Below are positions 49,570-57,642 of a stretch of 64,000 nucleotides of DNA, in pieces. The DNA lies in the NCBI RefSeq assembly GCF_027947595.1, contig NZ_CP116257.1, positions 1,178,001 to 1,242,000 on the forward strand, in the 5' to 3' direction. The stretch is from Streptomyces lienomycini (lineage in GTDB: Bacteria; Actinomycetota; Actinomycetes; Streptomycetales; Streptomycetaceae). The translations under genes were made by a program, and so were the position numbers. Under the pieces are notes generated by a model, which saw only the letters and a program-made list of their open reading frames with translations, was not told the origin of the DNA and ran no database searches. Numbering within the stretch: the first letter of the stretch is position 1; each line of letters begins with the position of its first letter.

Positions 49570-51135
49570 GTGGGACGCCACAGCCGCCGCGGACCCGCCC
49601 CCAAGGCCGACGCGGCGGACACCGCCACAGCACGCGAGAACCCGACCGCATGGCAGGCCCGCCGCCGAACTACCGGCCCCTCTCAGGGGCCTCAGGGGTC
49701 GCCGACCGCGCCGACGGGGGGCGTGCCCGGTGGGCCGTCTCGTGGGCCTCAGGGGCCGGGTCAAGGCCCGGGCCAGGGTTCGGGTCCCGGCCCGGGTCAA
49801 GGCGCACGGTTCCCGGACGGTACGCCCGCCCAGGGGGCGCCCGGGCGTCCCGCCGGCACGCCCGCCCACGGAGTCCCCAGGTTCACCGACGGCACTCCGG
49901 CGCGTGGTGTGCCGCAGGCCCGTGGCGGTCACCCCGAGCAGCGTGAACCCGGCGGTGGCTGGGGCGAGTTGAGTGGACGTCCCGGCACCGGGCACGGCGC
50001 CGCCGCGGGACCGCCCCCCGGCGCCCCGGCGGCTCCCGGCCGGTCGCCCCGGCCCGGTACGCCCTTCCCCAGGCAGCGACAGGTGCCCCCCGGCGGGCCG
50101 CGGCAGGAGTACCTGGACGCCTTCGGCGCGGACCACGACGTCGCAGGCGCGGACCACGACGTCTTCGCGGCCCGCCCCCCGCGTCGAACCCCCGGCCCCG
50201 AGCGGCCCGCCGACCCGTACGCCTCCGTCACCGACTGGAGCGCCGACGACGGGGGCGGCGGTACCCCCGCCCGCCCCGACACGGGCGCCGACGAAGAGCC
50301 GCCCACGGGTGATCCCGCGCCGGTCAAGGGCGCCAAGGGCCGGACGTTCACCGGCATCGCGGCGGCCGCCGTCACCACCGTGCTGGCCGTCGTCGTGGCC
50401 GGTCAGGTCGCCGACGGGTCGGACGGGGGCGACGTGCGCTCGCAGTCCGCCACCGACCAGGCCCGGGGCGCCCACGACTCCGCGTCACGGGACGACGAAC
50501 GGCCGACGCCCGCCGCGTCCGGGGCCCCGGCGCCGCTGACGTACGAACAGAAGATGGGTAAGACCTACCCGCTCAGTGCCACGCTCAAGGGCTCGGGGAA
50601 GTTCGACGCCATCCCTGGCATCGCCAAGGGGACCGGGAAGGGGCAGCGGTACACCTACCGCATCGACGTGGAGCAGGGGCTCGGCCTCGACGGCGAACTC
50701 TTCGCCGACGCCGTGCAGAAGACGCTCAACGACGACCGGAGCTGGTCCCACAACGGAGCCCGCACCTTCGAGCGCATCGAGTCGGGCCAGCCCAACTTCG
50801 TCATCACGCTGGCCAGTCCGGGCACGACTGCCGAGTGGTGCGCCAAGTCCGGCCTGGACACCACCGAGGACAACGTGTCCTGCGACTCGGCCGCCACCGC
50901 ACGCGTGATGATCAACGCCTATCGATGGGCGCAGGGTGCCGCGCCGTACGGCGACGCGATCTACGCGTACCGGCAGATGCTGATCAACCACGAGGTCGGT
51001 CACCGCATCGGCTACAACCACGTCACCTGCGACAAGGACGGCGAACTCGCGCCGGTCATGCAGCAGCAGACGAAGTTCGTCGACCACGACGGAATCGACT
51101 GCCGCCCCAACGCCTGGGCCTACCCGAACAACTGA
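49570..51135 (+). CDS. DUF3152 protein, putative metalloprotease
   Basis: A 521-residue protein. It has a disordered Gly/Pro-rich N-terminus (about 260 residues), one transmembrane helix (FTGIAAAAVTTVLAVVVAGQ), a linker and a conserved C-terminal DUF3152 domain (from about residue 325). The domain ends with His474, Glu475, His478 and His484 in INHEVGHRIGYNHVTC, the HExxHxxGxxH zinc motif of metzincins, and cysteines at 444, 457 and 488 nearby. Homologue Rv3207c lies between moeB1 and the TetR gene. GTG start after AGGAGG. Proteolysis is inference from the motif. Confidence 0.85.
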   Translation: MGRHSRRGPAPKADAADTATARENPTAWQARRRTTGPSQGPQGSPTAPTGGVPGGPSRGPQGPGQGPGQGSGPGPGQGARFPDGTPAQGAPGRPAGTPAHGVPRFTDGTPARGVPQARGGHPEQREPGGGWGELSGRPGTGHGAAAGPPPGAPAAPGRSPRPGTPFPRQRQVPPGGPRQEYLDAFGADHDVAGADHDVFAARPPRRTPGPERPADPYASVTDWSADDGGGGTPARPDTGADEEPPTGDPAPVKGAKGRTFTGIAAAAVTTVLAVVVAGQVADGSDGGDVRSQSATDQARGAHDSASRDDERPTPAASGAPAPLTYEQKMGKTYPLSATLKGSGKFDAIPGIAKGTGKGQRYTYRIDVEQGLGLDGELFADAVQKTLNDDRSWSHNGARTFERIESGQPNFVITLASPGTTAEWCAKSGLDTTEDNVSCDSAATARVMINAYRWAQGAAPYGDAIYAYRQMLINHEVGHRIGYNHVTCDKDGELAPVMQQQTKFVDHDGIDCRPNAWAYPNN

Positions 51136-51349: not shown

Positions 51350-53185
51350 GTGCGCATCGGACTGCTTGCGGAGGGTGGCTATCCGTATGTGAGCGGTGAG
51401 GCCGGGCTCTGGTGCGACCGGCTCGTACGCGGGCTGGAGCAGCACGAGTTCGACGTCTACGCGCTCAGCCGCAGTGAGCGCCAGGAGGCCGAGGGGTGGG
51501 TCCCGCTGCCGCCGCAGGTCGGCCGCGTGCGTACCGGCTCGCTGTGGGAGGACGTGGACGACGGAATCGTCCACGGGCGGCGCACGCGCCGGCGCTTCGC
51601 GGAGTGCTACGGCGAGCTGGCCGCGGCCCTGTGCGCCACCGCCCCCGGACAACCCTCCGAGAGCTCGGCGAAGGAGTCCCGGAGCGAGTCGTCCCTTGAG
51701 GCGGACCGTTTCGCCAGTGCCCTGTACGGCCTCGCCGAACTCGCCCGCGAGGAGGGCGGACTGCCCGCCGCGCTCCGCTCCGAGACGGCGGTACGCGCCC
51801 TGGAACGCGCCTGTCGCGCGCCCGGCGCCCACCGATCCGCACGCCAGGCGCGCGTCCCCGATCTGCTCACCGTCGCCGCACGCCTCGAACGCGCCCTGCG
51901 CCCCCTGTCGTTCGACTGGTACGAGGACGACGACCTCGGCTCGGTGGACCTGTGCCACGCTGCCTCCGGCGGCACGGCTGCCCTGCCGGGCCTGCTCGCC
52001 CGGCACTTCTGCGACATCCCCCTGCTGGTGACCGAGTACGGCGTGCGGCTGCGGACCCACTACCTGACGGAACCCGATTCCTCGCCCGCGATACGGTCCC
52101 TGCTCGCCGCCTTCCACGGACGGCTGACCGCCGAGACCTACCGCCGCGCGGCGATGATCACACCCGGCAACTCGCACGCCCGACGCTGGCAGGAGCGCTG
52201 CGGGGCCGATCGCGTCAAGCTGCGCACGGTCCCCCCGGGCATGGACGCCGCGCCCTTCGCGGAGGCGGGGGAGTCCCCGGAGCACGGTGACCCGCAGACC
52301 CTCGTCTGGGTCGGCCGCGTGGAGCCGGCCAAGGACCTGGTCTCGCTGCTGCACGCCTTCGCGGAGATCCGCAGGGCCGAGCCGGGCGCGCGCCTCAGGA
52401 TCGTCGGCGCCCCGCGAGGCCCCGAGGGCGCCGCGTACCTGGCCCACTGCAAGGGACTGGCCGCGCAGCTCTTTCCCGACGAGGCCGACGGGCCGCACGC
52501 CGTCGGCCGCAACCCGGTGTCCTTCGAGGAGACCGGCGGACCCGAACTGCCGTCCCGCGCCGACGCGTACGCCTCGGGGGCCCTGGTGGTCCTCTCCAGC
52601 GTCGTCGAGGGATTCCCGGCCGGGCTCGTCGAGGCCATGTTCTGCGGCCGCGCGACGGTGTCCACGGACGTCGGGGCGGTGGTGGAGGCCATCGGGGGCA
52701 CCGGACTCGTCGTGCCCCCGCGCAATCCGAGGGCGCTCGCCGAAGCGTGTGTCGCGCTGTTGCGCGACCGGGAGCGCCGTGAACGCCTGGGCGCCGCCGC
52801 GCGCGCCCGCGCGCTGGAGTTGTTCACCGTCGAGCAGAACGTCACGGCATTCCACGGCATCTACCTGGAGATCCTCTCGCGCACCCCGGTCCGCCGTGTC
52901 GTCCTCGACGACACCGGCGAACCCCTCCCCTTCGCCGTCCCCGCCGAGGCCCACGTCCCCGGCCGCTGGAGCGATTCCACGGCCCGTGTCGCGGCCAGGG
53001 GAGGCCCCCAAACGATCGGGGGAGGCTCCCAAGCGGTCGGGGGAGGCCTCCAAGCGGTTGGTGGTGGTCCCGGCGCGGTCCGTCGTGGTTCCGGTCCCGG
53101 CTGGGCGCAGGACGCCCCCGTCCGGGCCACGGCCCCGGCTTCGGCCCCGGCTTCGGCTTCGGCGACCAAGGGAGCGGTTCGATGA
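51350..53185 (+). CDS. PelF-like glycosyltransferase (DUF3492 + GT4)
   Basis: A 611-residue protein. The start (MRIGLLAEGGYPYVSGEAGL, WCDRLVRGLEQHEFDVYAL) and PLLVTEYGVRLRTHYLTE are DUF3492 features of PelF. The C-terminal GT4 half has WVGRVEPAKDLVSLLHAFAE, SSVVEGFPAGLVEAMFCGRA and STDVGAVVEAIGGTGLVVPP. PelF polymerises UDP-GalNAc/GlcNAc units of Pel polysaccharide in other bacteria; substrate use here is unknown. After about residue 520 the tail is low complexity with 21-base tandem repeats. Its stop overlaps the next start (ATGA). GTG at 51350 precedes the first conserved strand. Confidence 0.85.
   Translation: MRIGLLAEGGYPYVSGEAGLWCDRLVRGLEQHEFDVYALSRSERQEAEGWVPLPPQVGRVRTGSLWEDVDDGIVHGRRTRRRFAECYGELAAALCATAPGQPSESSAKESRSESSLEADRFASALYGLAELAREEGGLPAALRSETAVRALERACRAPGAHRSARQARVPDLLTVAARLERALRPLSFDWYEDDDLGSVDLCHAASGGTAALPGLLARHFCDIPLLVTEYGVRLRTHYLTEPDSSPAIRSLLAAFHGRLTAETYRRAAMITPGNSHARRWQERCGADRVKLRTVPPGMDAAPFAEAGESPEHGDPQTLVWVGRVEPAKDLVSLLHAFAEIRRAEPGARLRIVGAPRGPEGAAYLAHCKGLAAQLFPDEADGPHAVGRNPVSFEETGGPELPSRADAYASGALVVLSSVVEGFPAGLVEAMFCGRATVSTDVGAVVEAIGGTGLVVPPRNPRALAEACVALLRDRERRERLGAAARARALELFTVEQNVTAFHGIYLEILSRTPVRRVVLDDTGEPLPFAVPAEAHVPGRWSDSTARVAARGGPQTIGGGSQAVGGGLQAVGGGPGAVRRGSGPGWAQDAPVRATAPASAPASASATKGAVR
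52998..53059 (+). repeat. Three imperfect 21-base repeats in the glycosyltransferase tail
   Basis: GGGGGAGGCTCCCAAGCGGTC-type units occur three times in tandem and encode GGxxQxV-G repeats in the disordered tail. Confidence 0.75.
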
Positions 53186-54492
53186 GCGGCCTCGGCGAAC
53201 TGGACCGGCCCGAAACCCCACAGAGCCCCGGTGCCTGGGACGAACGCTCCCGCAGGTCCCTGGCCGACACGGCGGACACGGCGGACACGGCGGACACGGC
53301 GGCTCGGGCCAGTGGGACCGATGGGACCGATGGGGCCGATGGGACCGGTGGAGCCGAGGGGTCCGCCGTCGGCGGAGGGGCTCGCGACGGCAGGCAGCCG
53401 CCGTCCGCACCCGTCGGCCGCCGCGCCGCCGACCCGGTGAAAGGGCTGCTGCACCGGCACCGCGAACTGTGCGAACGCGCCGTGGACCCGCTCGAGATCG
53501 CCGCGGGCCTGGAGGCACACGGCGTCACCGACCGGACCGCCGCTCGCTTCCGCCACCGGGACGTCTTCTCCCTCGCCGAGGAGATGTACGCGCGCGTCCC
53601 GCGCCACGGCGATGCCCCCGCGCGCGCCGCGGACGCGCCGACCCCCCGGCCGCGTACCACCTGGATCGTCCTCGCACTGCTGCCCGGCGTGCTGTGCGCC
53701 GCAGCCGTGGCCGGACTGCGTCTCACCGAGGGCCGGCCCCGTCTGCTCGTGGCCCTCGTCGGCGTCCTCGCGGTGAGCCTGGCCCTGGGCGCGGCACTGC
53801 GCCGCGGGCCGCTGAGCGCCGCGACGCGCACCACCAGCACCTGGACCTGCTGGCTCGTCGGCTACGCCCTCCTCGGAGACGGGCTCCTGCGCACCGCCGT
53901 CAGCGGCGGCCCCGACGGCCTGCCCGACGGCACCGCCGACGGCGCCTGGCCCCTCACCCTCGCCCCCGTCCTGGCGCTCGCGCTGTCCTGCGCGCCCGCG
54001 ACCGTGTGCGCCCACCTCTTCGCCGTCCGCGCCCGCCGCAAACTGACGTCCAGCCGGGGCCTGGCCGACTTCTCCGCCTCCGTACGCCCCCTGCTGCTCG
54101 GCACGTTCGCCCTGTACACGGTCGTCCTCGCCGCCCTGCTCACGCTGACGGGCGCGGTGCTCGGCGAGTCCGCGGCCCATCCCCAGGGCCTCACCCTGGG
54201 CGTACTGCTGCTGCTCGCCCGTCTGCTCACGGTGCACGGCCACACCCACGCCACCACGCTCGTCCTCACCGCCTCGGCCACCGCCGAGGCAGCGGCCCTG
54301 GCCACGCTCTTCGCCGGCCGCCTCCCCGGCTGCGGCTTCCTGGCCGCCCCCGTCGACGCCCTGGTCGCCGCCTGCGGCCCGGCCGGTGTTCCGACGGCCG
54401 CCTGCGGCATCGGGGCACTGACCCTCCTCGTCCACGCGTGCCGCCGCCTGACCAGGGCCTCGGCCCACGCGTCGACGGAGCGGCCGTGGTGA
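53182..54492 (+). CDS. Multi-pass membrane protein of the PelF-like cluster
   Basis: A 436-residue protein. The N-terminal 90 residues are low complexity (TADTADTADTA and GTDGTDGADGTGG), then a helical part with PLEIAAGLEAHGVTDRTAARF, followed by about eight transmembrane helices between residues 155 and 430 (for example TWIVLALLPGVLCAAAVAGL). It is translated by ATGA overlap with the glycosyltransferase. It could have the role of PelG or another export/flippase component, but sequence identity to PelG cannot be judged here. No known domain was recognised. Confidence 0.78.
   Translation: MSGLGELDRPETPQSPGAWDERSRRSLADTADTADTADTAARASGTDGTDGADGTGGAEGSAVGGGARDGRQPPSAPVGRRAADPVKGLLHRHRELCERAVDPLEIAAGLEAHGVTDRTAARFRHRDVFSLAEEMYARVPRHGDAPARAADAPTPRPRTTWIVLALLPGVLCAAAVAGLRLTEGRPRLLVALVGVLAVSLALGAALRRGPLSAATRTTSTWTCWLVGYALLGDGLLRTAVSGGPDGLPDGTADGAWPLTLAPVLALALSCAPATVCAHLFAVRARRKLTSSRGLADFSASVRPLLLGTFALYTVVLAALLTLTGAVLGESAAHPQGLTLGVLLLLARLLTVHGHTHATTLVLTASATAEAAALATLFAGRLPGCGFLAAPVDALVAACGPAGVPTAACGIGALTLLVHACRRLTRASAHASTERPW
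53266..53349 (+). repeat. Two 9-base tandem arrays in the membrane-protein N-terminus
   Basis: Four copies of GACACGGCG (53266-53301) and, after a short gap, four copies of GGGACCGAT-type units (53314-53349). Both keep the reading frame. Confidence 0.85.
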
Positions 54493-54560
54493 ACACGCGC
54501 ACGGACAGCCCCGCACGCGTCCGCAACACCCCCGCATCACCCCTCTGAAGGAGCCCCCAG

Positions 54561-54608
54561 ATGACCACCTCCCGACCCGACGCCTCGGCACCGGGAGCCG
54601 CCCGATGA
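54561..54608 (+). CDS. 15-codon leader ORF before the epimerase
   Basis: ATG at 54561 is placed seven bases after AAGGAG and reads MTTSRPDASAPGAAR, then TGA. The stop shares ATGA with the epimerase start at 54605. The epimerase lacks its own good Shine-Dalgarno, so this ORF probably couples its translation. It may be a leader peptide or merely a coupling device. Confidence 0.5.
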   Translation: MTTSRPDASAPGAAR

Positions 54609-55663
54609 GAGTCCTGCTGATCGGAGCCAACGGCTACATCGGCCGCTTCGTCGCCGACCGTCTGCTCGCCGACCCCGCCGTCCAGCTCACCGCTCTCGGC
54701 CGCGGCGACGACGCCGACGTCCGCTTCGACCTCGCCACCGGCAGCCCCGGCGCACTCACCCGCTTCCTCGACGCGGTCCACCCCGGCGTCGTCGTCAACT
54801 GCGCGGGCGCCACCCGGGGCGGCGCCCGCGAACTCACCCGGCACAACACCGTCGCCGTCGCCACGGTCTGCGAGGCCCTGCGGCGCAGCGGCTGCGGCGC
54901 GCGCCTCGTGCAGGTCGGCTGCAGCGCGGAGTACGGCCCCAGCCAGCCCGGCTCCTCCACCGCGGAGGACGCCGTGCCCCGCCCAGGCGGCCCCTACGGC
55001 GTCAGCAAGCTCGCCGCGACGGAACTCGTCCTCGGCTCCGGCCTCGACGCCGTCGTCCTCCGCGTCTTCTCGCCCGCGGGGCCCGGCACGCCCGCCGGCT
55101 CCCCGCTCGGCCGGCTCGCCGAGGCGATGCGGCGCGCGATGCAGTCGGGCGACGGCGAACTGCGGCTCGGCGGCCTCGGCGCCCAGCGCGACTTCATCGA
55201 CGTCCGTGACGTCGCCCGCGCGGTGCACGCCGCCTCTCTCTCCGCCGCACAGGGCGTCATCAACATCGGCTCCGGCCGCGCCGTCCGCCTGCGCGACGCC
55301 GCAGCCACCCTCGCCCGGGTCGCCGGATACGGCGGCGCCCTGCACGAACTGGACGGCCCCCCCGGCGCGCTCCGGCCCACCATCGGCCACCCCCGCACCG
55401 AATCCGTCGGCCACCGCCTCGACGCCCTCGGCCACCACCGGACCGACGCCCTCGGCCACCACCGCCCGGACCCGCTCGGGAACCGGGGCGAGCGCCCCGA
55501 CGCCGACCACGCCGCGCCGGCCCCGCATCCCTACCCGGACGGCTGCGGCAGCTGGCAGCAGGCCGACGTACGCACCGCCCGCGACCGGCTCGGCTGGCGA
55601 CCCCGGATCGCCCTCGAAGAGTCCCTCGCCGACATCTGGATGGAGGCGGCATGCCGTATCTGA
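54605..55663 (+). CDS. NAD-dependent epimerase/dehydratase (SDR)
   Basis: A 352-residue extended SDR. The NAD-binding motif is VLLIGANGYIGRFVADRLL, and the catalytic Tyr-x3-Lys is in GPYGVSKLAATE with Ser in QVGCSAEYGPSQPGSS. The conserved FSPAGPG and GAQRDFIDVRDVARAVHAAS are typical of UDP-sugar epimerases/reductases. A tandem His/Asp-rich insertion (residues about 258-315, with repeats SVGHRLDALGHHRTDALGHH) is unusual. It probably supplies or modifies the nucleotide sugar for the neighbouring PelF-like enzyme; the exact substrate is unknown. Confidence 0.83.
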   Translation: MRVLLIGANGYIGRFVADRLLADPAVQLTALGRGDDADVRFDLATGSPGALTRFLDAVHPGVVVNCAGATRGGARELTRHNTVAVATVCEALRRSGCGARLVQVGCSAEYGPSQPGSSTAEDAVPRPGGPYGVSKLAATELVLGSGLDAVVLRVFSPAGPGTPAGSPLGRLAEAMRRAMQSGDGELRLGGLGAQRDFIDVRDVARAVHAASLSAAQGVINIGSGRAVRLRDAAATLARVAGYGGALHELDGPPGALRPTIGHPRTESVGHRLDALGHHRTDALGHHRPDPLGNRGERPDADHAAPAPHPYPDGCGSWQQADVRTARDRLGWRPRIALEESLADIWMEAACRI

Positions 55664-56400
55664 CCAGTACCAGAGCGGGCACCGCGGGCACCGCCGTCCG
55701 CACCGGCATCGGTGTCCCGGGACTGGCCCACCCCCTCGTCGCCCCCGACGAGTGGGCCGGCCTCACCTGCCCCGGCACCCCCCTGCACTGGGTCGTCCTC
55801 AACATCGCCGCCGGCCCCGGCACCCGCCCCGACCCGCGCTGCCTGGAGGCCGCGGGGCACCTGCGCAACGCGGGCATCCGCGTCCTCGGCCATCTCGACG
55901 CCGCGTACGGAGCCCGCAGCCTCGGCGAGCAGATCTCCGACGCCCACCGGTATCTCGACTGGTACCAGGCCGACGGATTCCTCCTCGACCGCTGCCCGTC
56001 CGAACGAGCCGCCCTCCCCGAGGTCCGCCGCACGGTCACCACGCTCCGCGCGATCCGTGACGACGCCCACATCGTCCTGGGCCACGGCACTCACCCCCAC
56101 CCCGGCTACACCGAGAACGCCGACCAGCTCGTCACCTTCTCCGGCACCTGGGCCGACTACCGCTGGTCCCAGGCCGCCGAGTGGAGCGCCGACCATCCGC
56201 CCGACCGCTTCTGCCACTTCGTCCACGGCGTGCCGCGCGGACATCTGGAGGAGGCGCTGCGCATCGCCCGCTGGCAGGGAGCGGCGACGATCTACTTCAC
56301 CGACCGCACGGACCGCGGCGGCCGGGCCGACCCCTGGGAGACACTGCCCGGCTACTGGGACGAAATCGTCTCGCGGGTCGGGACGGGTGTCTCGGAATGA
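55651..56400 (+). CDS. Spherulation-specific family 4 (spherulin-4/GH114-like) protein
   Basis: A 249-residue TIM-barrel protein. It has GIGVPGLAHPLVAPDEW, LHWVVLNIAAGPGTR, GHLDAAYGARSLGEQISDAH, YLDWYQADGFLLDRCPS and VLGHGTHPHPGY. This family includes spherulin-4 of Physarum and bacterial proteins related to GH114 alpha-1,4-galactosaminidases (PelA). No signal peptide is obvious, so any hydrolase role would be cytoplasmic or depend on another export route. It overlaps the epimerase end by 13 bases and is tightly coupled. Confidence 0.85.
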   Translation: MPYLTSTRAGTAGTAVRTGIGVPGLAHPLVAPDEWAGLTCPGTPLHWVVLNIAAGPGTRPDPRCLEAAGHLRNAGIRVLGHLDAAYGARSLGEQISDAHRYLDWYQADGFLLDRCPSERAALPEVRRTVTTLRAIRDDAHIVLGHGTHPHPGYTENADQLVTFSGTWADYRWSQAAEWSADHPPDRFCHFVHGVPRGHLEEALRIARWQGAATIYFTDRTDRGGRADPWETLPGYWDEIVSRVGTGVSE

Positions 56401-56463: not shown

Positions 56464-57642
56464 GTGTCGCTGCCACCCCTGGTCGAGCCGGCCGCCGAGC
56501 TCACCGTAGACGAGGTCCGCAGGTACTCCCGCCACCTGATCATCCCCGATGTGGGGATGGACGGGCAGAAGCGGCTGAAGAACGCCAAGGTGCTCGCCGT
56601 GGGCGCGGGCGGCCTCGGTTCGCCGACGCTGATGTACCTGGCGGCAGCCGGTGTCGGCACGCTCGGCATCATCGAGTTCGACGAGGTCGACGAGTCGAAC
56701 CTGCAGCGGCAGGTCATCCACAGCCAGGCCGACATCGGCCGGCCCAAGGCCGAGTCCGCCCGTGACACCATCAAGGGCATCAACCCGCTGGTTGACGTGA
56801 TCCTTCACCAGGAGCGGCTCGAGGCCGACAACGTGATGGACATCTTCAGCCAGTACGACCTGATCGTCGACGGTACGGACAACTTCGCGACCCGCTACCT
56901 GGTCAACGACGCCTGCGTGCTGCTGAACAAGCCCTACGTGTGGGGTTCGATCTACCGCTTCGACGGCCAGGCCTCCGTCTTCTGGTCCGAGCACGGCCCC
57001 TGCTACCGCTGCCTCTACCCGGAGCCCCCGCCCCCCGGCATGGTCCCCTCCTGCGCCGAGGGCGGCGTGCTGGGCGTGCTGTGCGCGTCCATCGGCTCCA
57101 TCCAGACCAACGAGGCCATCAAGCTCCTCGCGGGCATCGGCGAGCCGCTGGTCGGCCGACTGATGATCTACGACGCCCTGGAGATGACGTACCGCCAGGT
57201 CAAGGTCCGCAAGGACCCCGACTGCGCGGTCTGCGGCGAGAACCCCACCGTCACCGAACTCATCGACTACGAGGCTTTCTGCGGCGTCGTGTCCGAGGAG
57301 GCCCAGGCGGCGGCCGCCGACTCCACGATCACTCCCAAGCAGCTCAAGGAGTGGATCGACGACGGTGAGAACATCGAGCTCATCGACGTCCGCGAGCCGA
57401 ACGAGTTCGAGATCGTCTCCATCCCGGGTGCCAAGCTGATCCCGAAGAACGAGTTCCTCATGGGCTCGGCCCTCGAGAGCCTCCCGCAGGACAAGAAGAT
57501 CGTCTTGAACTGCAAGACGGGTGTCCGCAGTGCGGAAGTCCTCGCCGTCCTCAAGTCCGCCGGCTTCTCGGACGCCGTCCACGTCGGCGGCGGCGTGGTC
57601 GGCTGGGTCAACCAGATCGAACCGGAGAAGCCCGTCTACTGA
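56464..57642 (+). CDS. moeZ: Adenylyltransferase/sulfurtransferase MoeZ
   Basis: A 392-residue fusion of a ThiF/MoeB-type E1 domain (GAGGLGSPTLMYLAAAGVGT, with DEVDESNLQRQVIHS) and a C-terminal rhodanese domain with active-site Cys350 in LNCKTGVRS. CxxC zinc pairs are in CYRCLYP and CAVCGEN. MoeZ adenylates and thiolates sulfur-carrier proteins such as MoaD, CysO and ThiS-like proteins for molybdopterin, cysteine and secondary-metabolite sulfur. GTG start after GGAG. Homologue Rv3206c. Confidence 0.94.
   Translation: MSLPPLVEPAAELTVDEVRRYSRHLIIPDVGMDGQKRLKNAKVLAVGAGGLGSPTLMYLAAAGVGTLGIIEFDEVDESNLQRQVIHSQADIGRPKAESARDTIKGINPLVDVILHQERLEADNVMDIFSQYDLIVDGTDNFATRYLVNDACVLLNKPYVWGSIYRFDGQASVFWSEHGPCYRCLYPEPPPPGMVPSCAEGGVLGVLCASIGSIQTNEAIKLLAGIGEPLVGRLMIYDALEMTYRQVKVRKDPDCAVCGENPTVTELIDYEAFCGVVSEEAQAAAADSTITPKQLKEWIDDGENIELIDVREPNEFEIVSIPGAKLIPKNEFLMGSALESLPQDKKIVLNCKTGVRSAEVLAVLKSAGFSDAVHVGGGVVGWVNQIEPEKPVY

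Follow-up and report, generated by a model that had tools for sequence, protein, structure and literature searches.

A 64,000-nucleotide stretch of Streptomyces lienomycini DNA (positions 1,178,001 to 1,242,000 of contig NZ_CP116257.1; hereafter the window) contains, at 51350-56400, four genes directly beside the housekeeping gene moeZ. They encode a glycosyltransferase (GT), a membrane protein (MEM), a short-chain dehydrogenase/reductase (SDR) and a Spherulin4-type protein (SPH). An earlier note on this DNA had read them as a PelF-like exopolysaccharide cluster, and we describe here the locus, its conservation, its more complete relatives and what it may be.

Gene layout and conservation beside moeZ

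The features of the locus and its neighbours are as follows.

51350..53185, + strand: GT, a PelF-like GT4 enzyme with a DUF3492 N-terminal domain, 611 aa, GTG start (Pfam, NCBIfam PelF, motifs, tree)
53182..54492, + strand: MEM, about 8 transmembrane (TM) helices and a conserved N-terminal helical domain (alignment, AlphaFold2, fold searches, TM counts)
54489..54548, + strand: mini open reading frame (ORF), 19 aa, 4-base overlap with the MEM gene
54561..54608, + strand: leader mini-ORF, 15 aa, with an AGGAG ribosome site and ATGA coupling to the SDR start
54605..55663, + strand: SDR (EPI), YxxxK intact, the most constrained of the four genes
55651..56400, + strand: SPH, Spherulin4/GH135-type, without an obvious signal peptide
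56464..57642, + strand: moeZ, fixed neighbour of the locus
49570..51135, + strand: DUF3152 protein, often found upstream of the locus and probably a unit of its own

ORF analysis bore out the four tightly coupled genes of the earlier note, with their coordinates and overlaps of 4, 4 and 13 bases. The GT/MEM overlap is 4 bases, as in 14/28 loci of the genus (automatic start choice), and the 13-base SDR/SPH overlap recurs exactly in 22/25 SPH-bearing loci of the genus. Two mini-ORFs lie between MEM and SDR, and the second (54561-54608), which shares 4 bases with the beginning of the SDR gene, is likely the leader ORF around which that note saw the genes arranged. An ATGA-coupled in-frame ORF is found in all 28 of these genus loci, one being just 2-4 aa, and the leader peptide often ends in GAAR. 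Pfam matches were obtained for DUF3492 (E-value 2.8e-28), GT4 (4.6e-22), Epimerase (9.4e-38) and Spherulin4 (5.6e-22), and MEM matched no Pfam family. A scan for promoters and terminators predicted none of either, which is uninformative at such GC content, and Rfam at gathering thresholds gave no match in 51-57 kb of the window. Elsewhere in the window, 6006-6267 matches Rfam RF02673, the scr4677 small RNA (170.6 bits).

Conservation was assessed in 28 Streptomyces genomes of a class-wide sample and in 148 stretches of 5-16 kb taken round SDR matches, 68 from Streptomyces and 80 spread over 14 further genus labels in the family, which represent part of the genomes with an SDR match. L-numbers below denote loci and g-numbers genus labels in the family sample. 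The 28 genomes all carry GT, MEM and SDR together, and 25 also carry SPH (one with a broken frame). Among the 68 genus loci, GT is present in 68, MEM in 66 and SPH in 62; SPH is present in 32 of the 80 others. These SPH counts use a custom profile, built partly from loci later scored; the PF12138 model misses divergent copies. The four genes are thus conserved together in other genomes, as the earlier note would require, and because moeZ accompanies SDR in 148/148 stretches, the linkage to moeZ is not by chance. The genus is identified as Streptomyces by the names of near relatives and by a separate named scan with the GT, in which 79 of the 80 loci kept were from Streptomyces and one from Kitasatospora aureofaciens. 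The leader with both a ribosome site and the ATGA overlap occurs in 64/68 genus loci vs 74/296 control frames (two frames, 148 loci); beyond the genus only 17/80 loci have it, with 0/24 in g127. A mycelium transcriptome table of S. coelicolor (PMC3610822) lists SCO5177 as a hypothetical gene, at values of 2.6-3.3. If moeZ is SCO5178, SCO5177 may belong to the locus.

The proteins and their intact relatives

The GT passes the NCBIfam PelF model (NF038011), so its likeness to PelF stands, but barely: it scores 104.6 bits against a cut-off of 100, and three intact relatives score 165-167. It is probably active, because the Glu pair of its EX7E motif (E420, E428) and residues R323 and K328 are present. 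It does not, however, cluster with the PelFs that are linked to PelG. In our tree these split (100/100) from GTs partnered by a MEM-type protein, and the window GT falls in this sister group; the tree holds only three PelG-linked PelFs (L325, L326, L327) and 12/28 genus GTs, and it carries a long-branch warning. The L057 GT, on a long branch, falls with the PelG-linked PelFs.

The EX7E pair is intact in 62/68 genus loci (four broken, two unresolved), a few of which have disrupted GT copies. In five other groups (g116, g117, g124, g125 and g127) it is broken in 41/42 loci (one unresolved), and SPH is absent from all 42. Counting all resolved loci (of the 148, four are unresolved and six have no GT match), SPH accompanies 85/93 intact and 3/45 broken GTs (Fisher p 1e-23, with clades that are not independent). 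Within the genus, the figures are 57 of 62 intact and three of four broken GTs.

PelG (PF16933) exceeded its cut-off in 3/296 genomes of a phylum sample, none from the genus, and had 0 matches in the window's genome. In another actinobacterial family, PelF, PF16933 PelG, an Agd3-like protein and a GH135 protein with a hydrophobic N-terminus lie side by side (L326:5447-12139, L327:5321-12078). By gene content these are hybrids of Pel and galactosaminoglycan (GAG) operons, so components of the two types do occur in combination in nature.

A relative of MEM shows a MATE/MurJ (MOP)-like fold by AlphaFold2 and fold searches; the window MEM's own fold match is weak, and the MOP assignment rests on that relative. 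PelG is absent from the fold matches listed, an absence that carries no weight. TM counts have a median of 8 at the moeZ locus vs 11 in loci of a “second kind”, i.e., intact-type loci away from moeZ. The window MEM is probably a shortened relative of 12-TM MOP-fold proteins, with roughly one third of the TM helices gone, and its N-terminal helical domain would be cytosolic. The absence of PelG, PelD and PelE reported in the earlier note holds by Pfam scan of eight neighbourhood proteins, with the qualification for PelG that, judging by the fold of MEM's relative, a PelG-like part may exist at the locus in shortened form.

SPH is of the GH135 type, matching Pfam Spherulin4 (78.9 bits) and the Sph3 structure 5c5g (E 1.8e-7). 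Of the “spherulin-4/GH114-like barrel” in the earlier note, the Spherulin4 part stands, and a GH114 barrel is ruled out. Putative catalytic residues of Sph3 are given as Asp166, Glu167 and Glu222 in PMC10485009, and PMC12054363 prints Asp196/Glu222. At these positions the window protein keeps Asp166, the putative nucleophile, and has Arg for Glu167 and Ser for Glu222, the putative acid/base, and on these residues it is judged not to be an active hydrolase. Outside the moeZ locus, 24 of 27 GH135 matches were examined (the other three had no locus), and all 24 keep Asp166, Glu222, the LGY Tyr and the HNPG Asn, with Glu167 in 1/24. At the moeZ locus Glu222 is kept in 2/94 proteins (L130 and L142). 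In the genus it is kept in 0/62, being replaced by Ser (39), Arg (11), Ala (6), Gln (3), Cys (2) or Thr (1), and Asp166 is kept in 41/62. Such varied replacements are the pattern expected once catalysis is no longer selected. The SPH N-terminus is not strongly hydrophobic (best 15-residue mean 0.98 vs 2.59 for the GH114 protein and 2.29 for the Agd3-like protein of L071), so SPH is probably cytosolic, as is probably the L071 GH135 protein (0.43).

The nearest solved relatives of the SDR are GDP-4-keto-6-deoxy-hexose reductases, followed by epimerases (top chain 2pk3, E 7.8e-21), and the likeness to 2pk3 is no more than a hint of its substrate. Of the 48 moeZ-side SDRs examined, 47 keep the YxxxK motif, the exception being L125 with Phe in place of Tyr; in the second kind 3/4 keep it, L076 having His in place of Lys. 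The His-rich insertion that had been called unusual is present as a 24-base tandem repeat of 4.2 copies. Because it is a tandem repeat and SDR length ranges from 304 to 352 aa across 28 genus loci, we regard it as a variable linker and have set it aside as a functional feature. The SDR persists at L124, L125, L141 and L170, where GT and MEM were not found. Median dN/dS (nonsynonymous to synonymous rate ratio) in the genus is 0.145 for SDR, 0.146 for moeZ, 0.342 for SPH, 0.385 for GT and 0.608 for MEM, which puts the constraint on the SDR level with that on moeZ. Two groups in which EX7E is lost, g127 and g116, were also measured, and their GT dN/dS is 0.42 and 0.45.

Loci of the second kind have stronger DUF3492 matches (190-214 bits in the genus). 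By Pfam and NCBIfam, their genes encode an Agd3-like protein, a PelF-like GT, MEM, a 4,6-dehydratase, a sugar-1-phosphate nucleotidyltransferase, an SDR and GH135. The dehydratase is LegB-like (449 bits, below the cut-off of 475). The L071 form has GH114 (290.6 bits) and is without the dehydratase, nucleotidyltransferase and SDR. The label “Agd3-like” reflects a weak Pfam match, the look of the motifs and gene context: Agd3_CE matched L071 below threshold (18.2 bits vs a cut-off of 27.6) and L073 not at all, and the protein had no sequence match in the PDB. The Agd3-like gene occurs in 12/28 genus genomes, which are exactly those with a second-kind GT, and in 0/16 with the moeZ-locus GT only, a group that includes the window's genome. 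Two queries gave no Agd3-like match in the window's genome (the second matched 12/28 genus genomes). Among 22 genomes, the dehydratase (at least 85% identity) and nucleotidyltransferase (at least 82%) were found only in the six included as carriers; in the other 16, more distant relatives of the dehydratase (51-53% identity, at a threshold of E 1e-70) turned up in two genomes and those of the nucleotidyltransferase (35-37%, at E 1e-40) in 14.

The 12 genomes with second-kind GTs (G057, G073, G101, G133, G143, G173, G182, G216, G243, G269, G277 and G293) carry one or two of them besides the moeZ-locus GT and so offer a natural test for division of labour. Several second-kind Agd3-like matches contain 1-3 internal stops (e.g., G182:C1:6162698-6164791), so this operon may likewise be in decay; a frameshift is the alternative. 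A relative of the operon at L076:12243-15267 has a gene that looks by eye like a UDP-sugar dehydrogenase, together with another epimerase and a protein weakly similar to GH114; that stretch gave no match to GH135.

One moeZ locus is complete. In L130, from the single genome fetched of g128, all eight genes lie in a row, with moeZ about 2.5 kb further on and one opposite-strand ORF between. Identities to second-kind proteins are 52% (Agd3-like, truncated where the stretch begins), 58% (GT), 40% (MEM), 68% (dehydratase), 72% (nucleotidyltransferase), 51% (SDR), 50% (GH135, active site intact) and 62% (GH114). Within the moeZ-locus clade (100/98) its GT diverges first, and the sister of that clade is formed by the second-kind GTs of the genus (100/99). 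The same search of the remaining 147 stretches turned up neither an Agd3-like gene nor one for a nucleotidyltransferase or GH114, and its dehydratase query matched the SDR alone.

There is no GH114 gene at the window locus, and two lie elsewhere in the window's genome. One of these, an orphan at C1:6055733-6056386 of that genome (L328:5719-7002, minus strand), sits between leucyl-aminopeptidase-like and cobS-like genes; these neighbours resemble, by eye and from their N-termini, the flanks of the whole L071 Agd3-like/GT/MEM/GH135/GH114 operon. This orphan may be all that is left there of such a second operon.

What the locus may be

The reading that we favour, with moderate confidence, is a dismantled GAG/Pel-type operon in which GT and SDR have become a repurposed module with non-catalytic partners and polymer secretion has been lost. 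An ancestor in Streptomycetaceae would have had a complete galactosaminoglycan operon beside moeZ, comprising an Agd3-like protein, PelF-like GT4, MOP-fold MEM, NDP-sugar 4,6-dehydratase, nucleotidyltransferase, SDR, GH135 and GH114. Stepwise loss would then have left the four-gene set in Streptomyces and a three-gene remnant in other genus groups. Synteny, tree and motifs support this history as the simplest account; less simply, the complete set may have reached the same spot in g128 by transfer. The GT4 and SDR of Streptomyces mostly still look catalytically competent, and the GH135 barrel is, by its residues, a retained pseudoenzyme. The GT4 would act at the inner face of the membrane, with the shortened MEM as its anchor, and would transfer one or a few sugars to some acceptor. 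The cytosolic pseudo-GH135 may assist it as a sugar-binding or chain-length scaffold, and the SDR may supply, reduce or sense the NDP-sugar. Polymer secretion, deacetylation and hydrolysis would no longer pass through the locus. Genes have been lost, the hydrolase's Glu is gone and the exporter-like protein is short, yet the set is kept, and its role is therefore probably other than polymer secretion.

A more specific form of this idea, which we put forward tentatively, is a non-secreting complex in which the GH135 protein turned into a scaffold and the exporter into an anchor. With the GT motif lost in five groups, though the GT stays under selection in the two measured, what remains might be a sensing or regulatory module centred on the SDR near moeZ, responding to, e.g., NDP-sugar or NAD(P)H state.

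Simple decay appears rather unlikely. It would mean that only the SDR is strongly selected, for an unrelated NDP-sugar or redox task tied to moeZ, with GT, MEM and SPH as drifting leftovers. The moeZ-like constraint on the SDR, its coupling to the leader in the genus, its survival at loci without GT or MEM and the few disrupted GT copies all fit, as do strong SDR matches in 112/121 family genomes (E <1e-90) and 95/101 genus genomes (E <1e-130). However, GT and SPH dN/dS is well below 1 genus-wide and EX7E is kept in 62/68 genus loci.

The same constraint, together with tight gene coupling and the intact GT motif, could instead speak for a minimal working surface-polysaccharide system, in which the GT polymerises UDP-N-acetylhexosamine, the shortened MEM exports the chain and the GH135-type protein binds it without cutting it. 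Galactosamine polymers at low levels in Streptomyces walls are also cited in the discussion of PMC7229062. We nevertheless consider this unlikely, as MEM has about 8 rather than 12 TM helices, dedicated sugar-supply genes are missing, no Agd3-like gene was found in the genome and GH114 is absent from the locus. What the earlier note called a reduced or variant Pel-like surface polysaccharide system is upheld as a reduced Pel-type relative and doubtful as a surface polysaccharide system, given GAG-like intact relatives, a hydrolase without its catalytic Glu and a MEM that is shortened in the genus. A true Pel cluster of the pelDEADAFG type has the NCBIfam PelF match in its favour and is otherwise largely refuted, the canonical form being ruled out by the position of the GT in the tree and by the absence of PF16933 PelG, PelD, PelE and PelA from the Pfam scan of the neighbourhood.

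Little is understood of either the surface glycans of Streptomyces or the pseudoenzymes of bacteria. At one fixed locus, this family offers a series from complete GAG-like operon to four-gene set to three-gene remnant, which lets one ask why a polysaccharide synthase is kept once polymer export and trimming are gone. The annotations PelF, spherulation protein and, in some records, phage tail protein are misleading, and a likely fold can be given for the membrane protein of GAG-like operons in bacteria, which has no Pfam match.

Comparison with known systems

The open-access literature searched held no paper on this locus and no account of a remnant linked to moeZ, of a GH135 active site lost there or of a MOP fold for MEM, which is not proof of their absence from print. 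MOP-superfamily proteins (MATE, MurJ, WzxE) lack the extra N-terminal helical domain of MEM, the window MEM has only about 8 TM helices, and its sequence falls outside all Pfam families. In the Gram-positive Pel operon pelDEADAFG (PMC7112168), a DUF3492/GT4 PelF-like enzyme adjoins a membrane protein, as in the window; the window differs in that no PelD, PelE, PelA or PF16933 PelG was found and its GT belongs to a different clade.

Gtb3 of Aspergillus is a GT with a fused membrane part. The Aspergillus galactosaminogalactan cluster comprises gtb3, agd3, sph3, ega3 and uge3 (PMC10485009), and the window locus resembles it in having a GT, an epimerase-type SDR and a Spherulin4/GH135 protein. Unlike that cluster, the window locus has no deacetylase or GH114, its barrel lacks a signal peptide and Glu222, and its SDR is closer to 4-keto-reductases than to GalE, with epimerases matching too.

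A further likeness is to the putative intact Agd3-containing operons of bacteria reported by Bamford et al. 2020 (PMC7229062). These combine a cytoplasmic GT, a multi-spanning membrane protein and, in some Actinobacteria, Spherulin-4, like the intact relatives found here. The window locus, in contrast, is without an Agd3-like gene and GH114, has a Spherulin4 protein without the catalytic Glu and is fixed beside moeZ.
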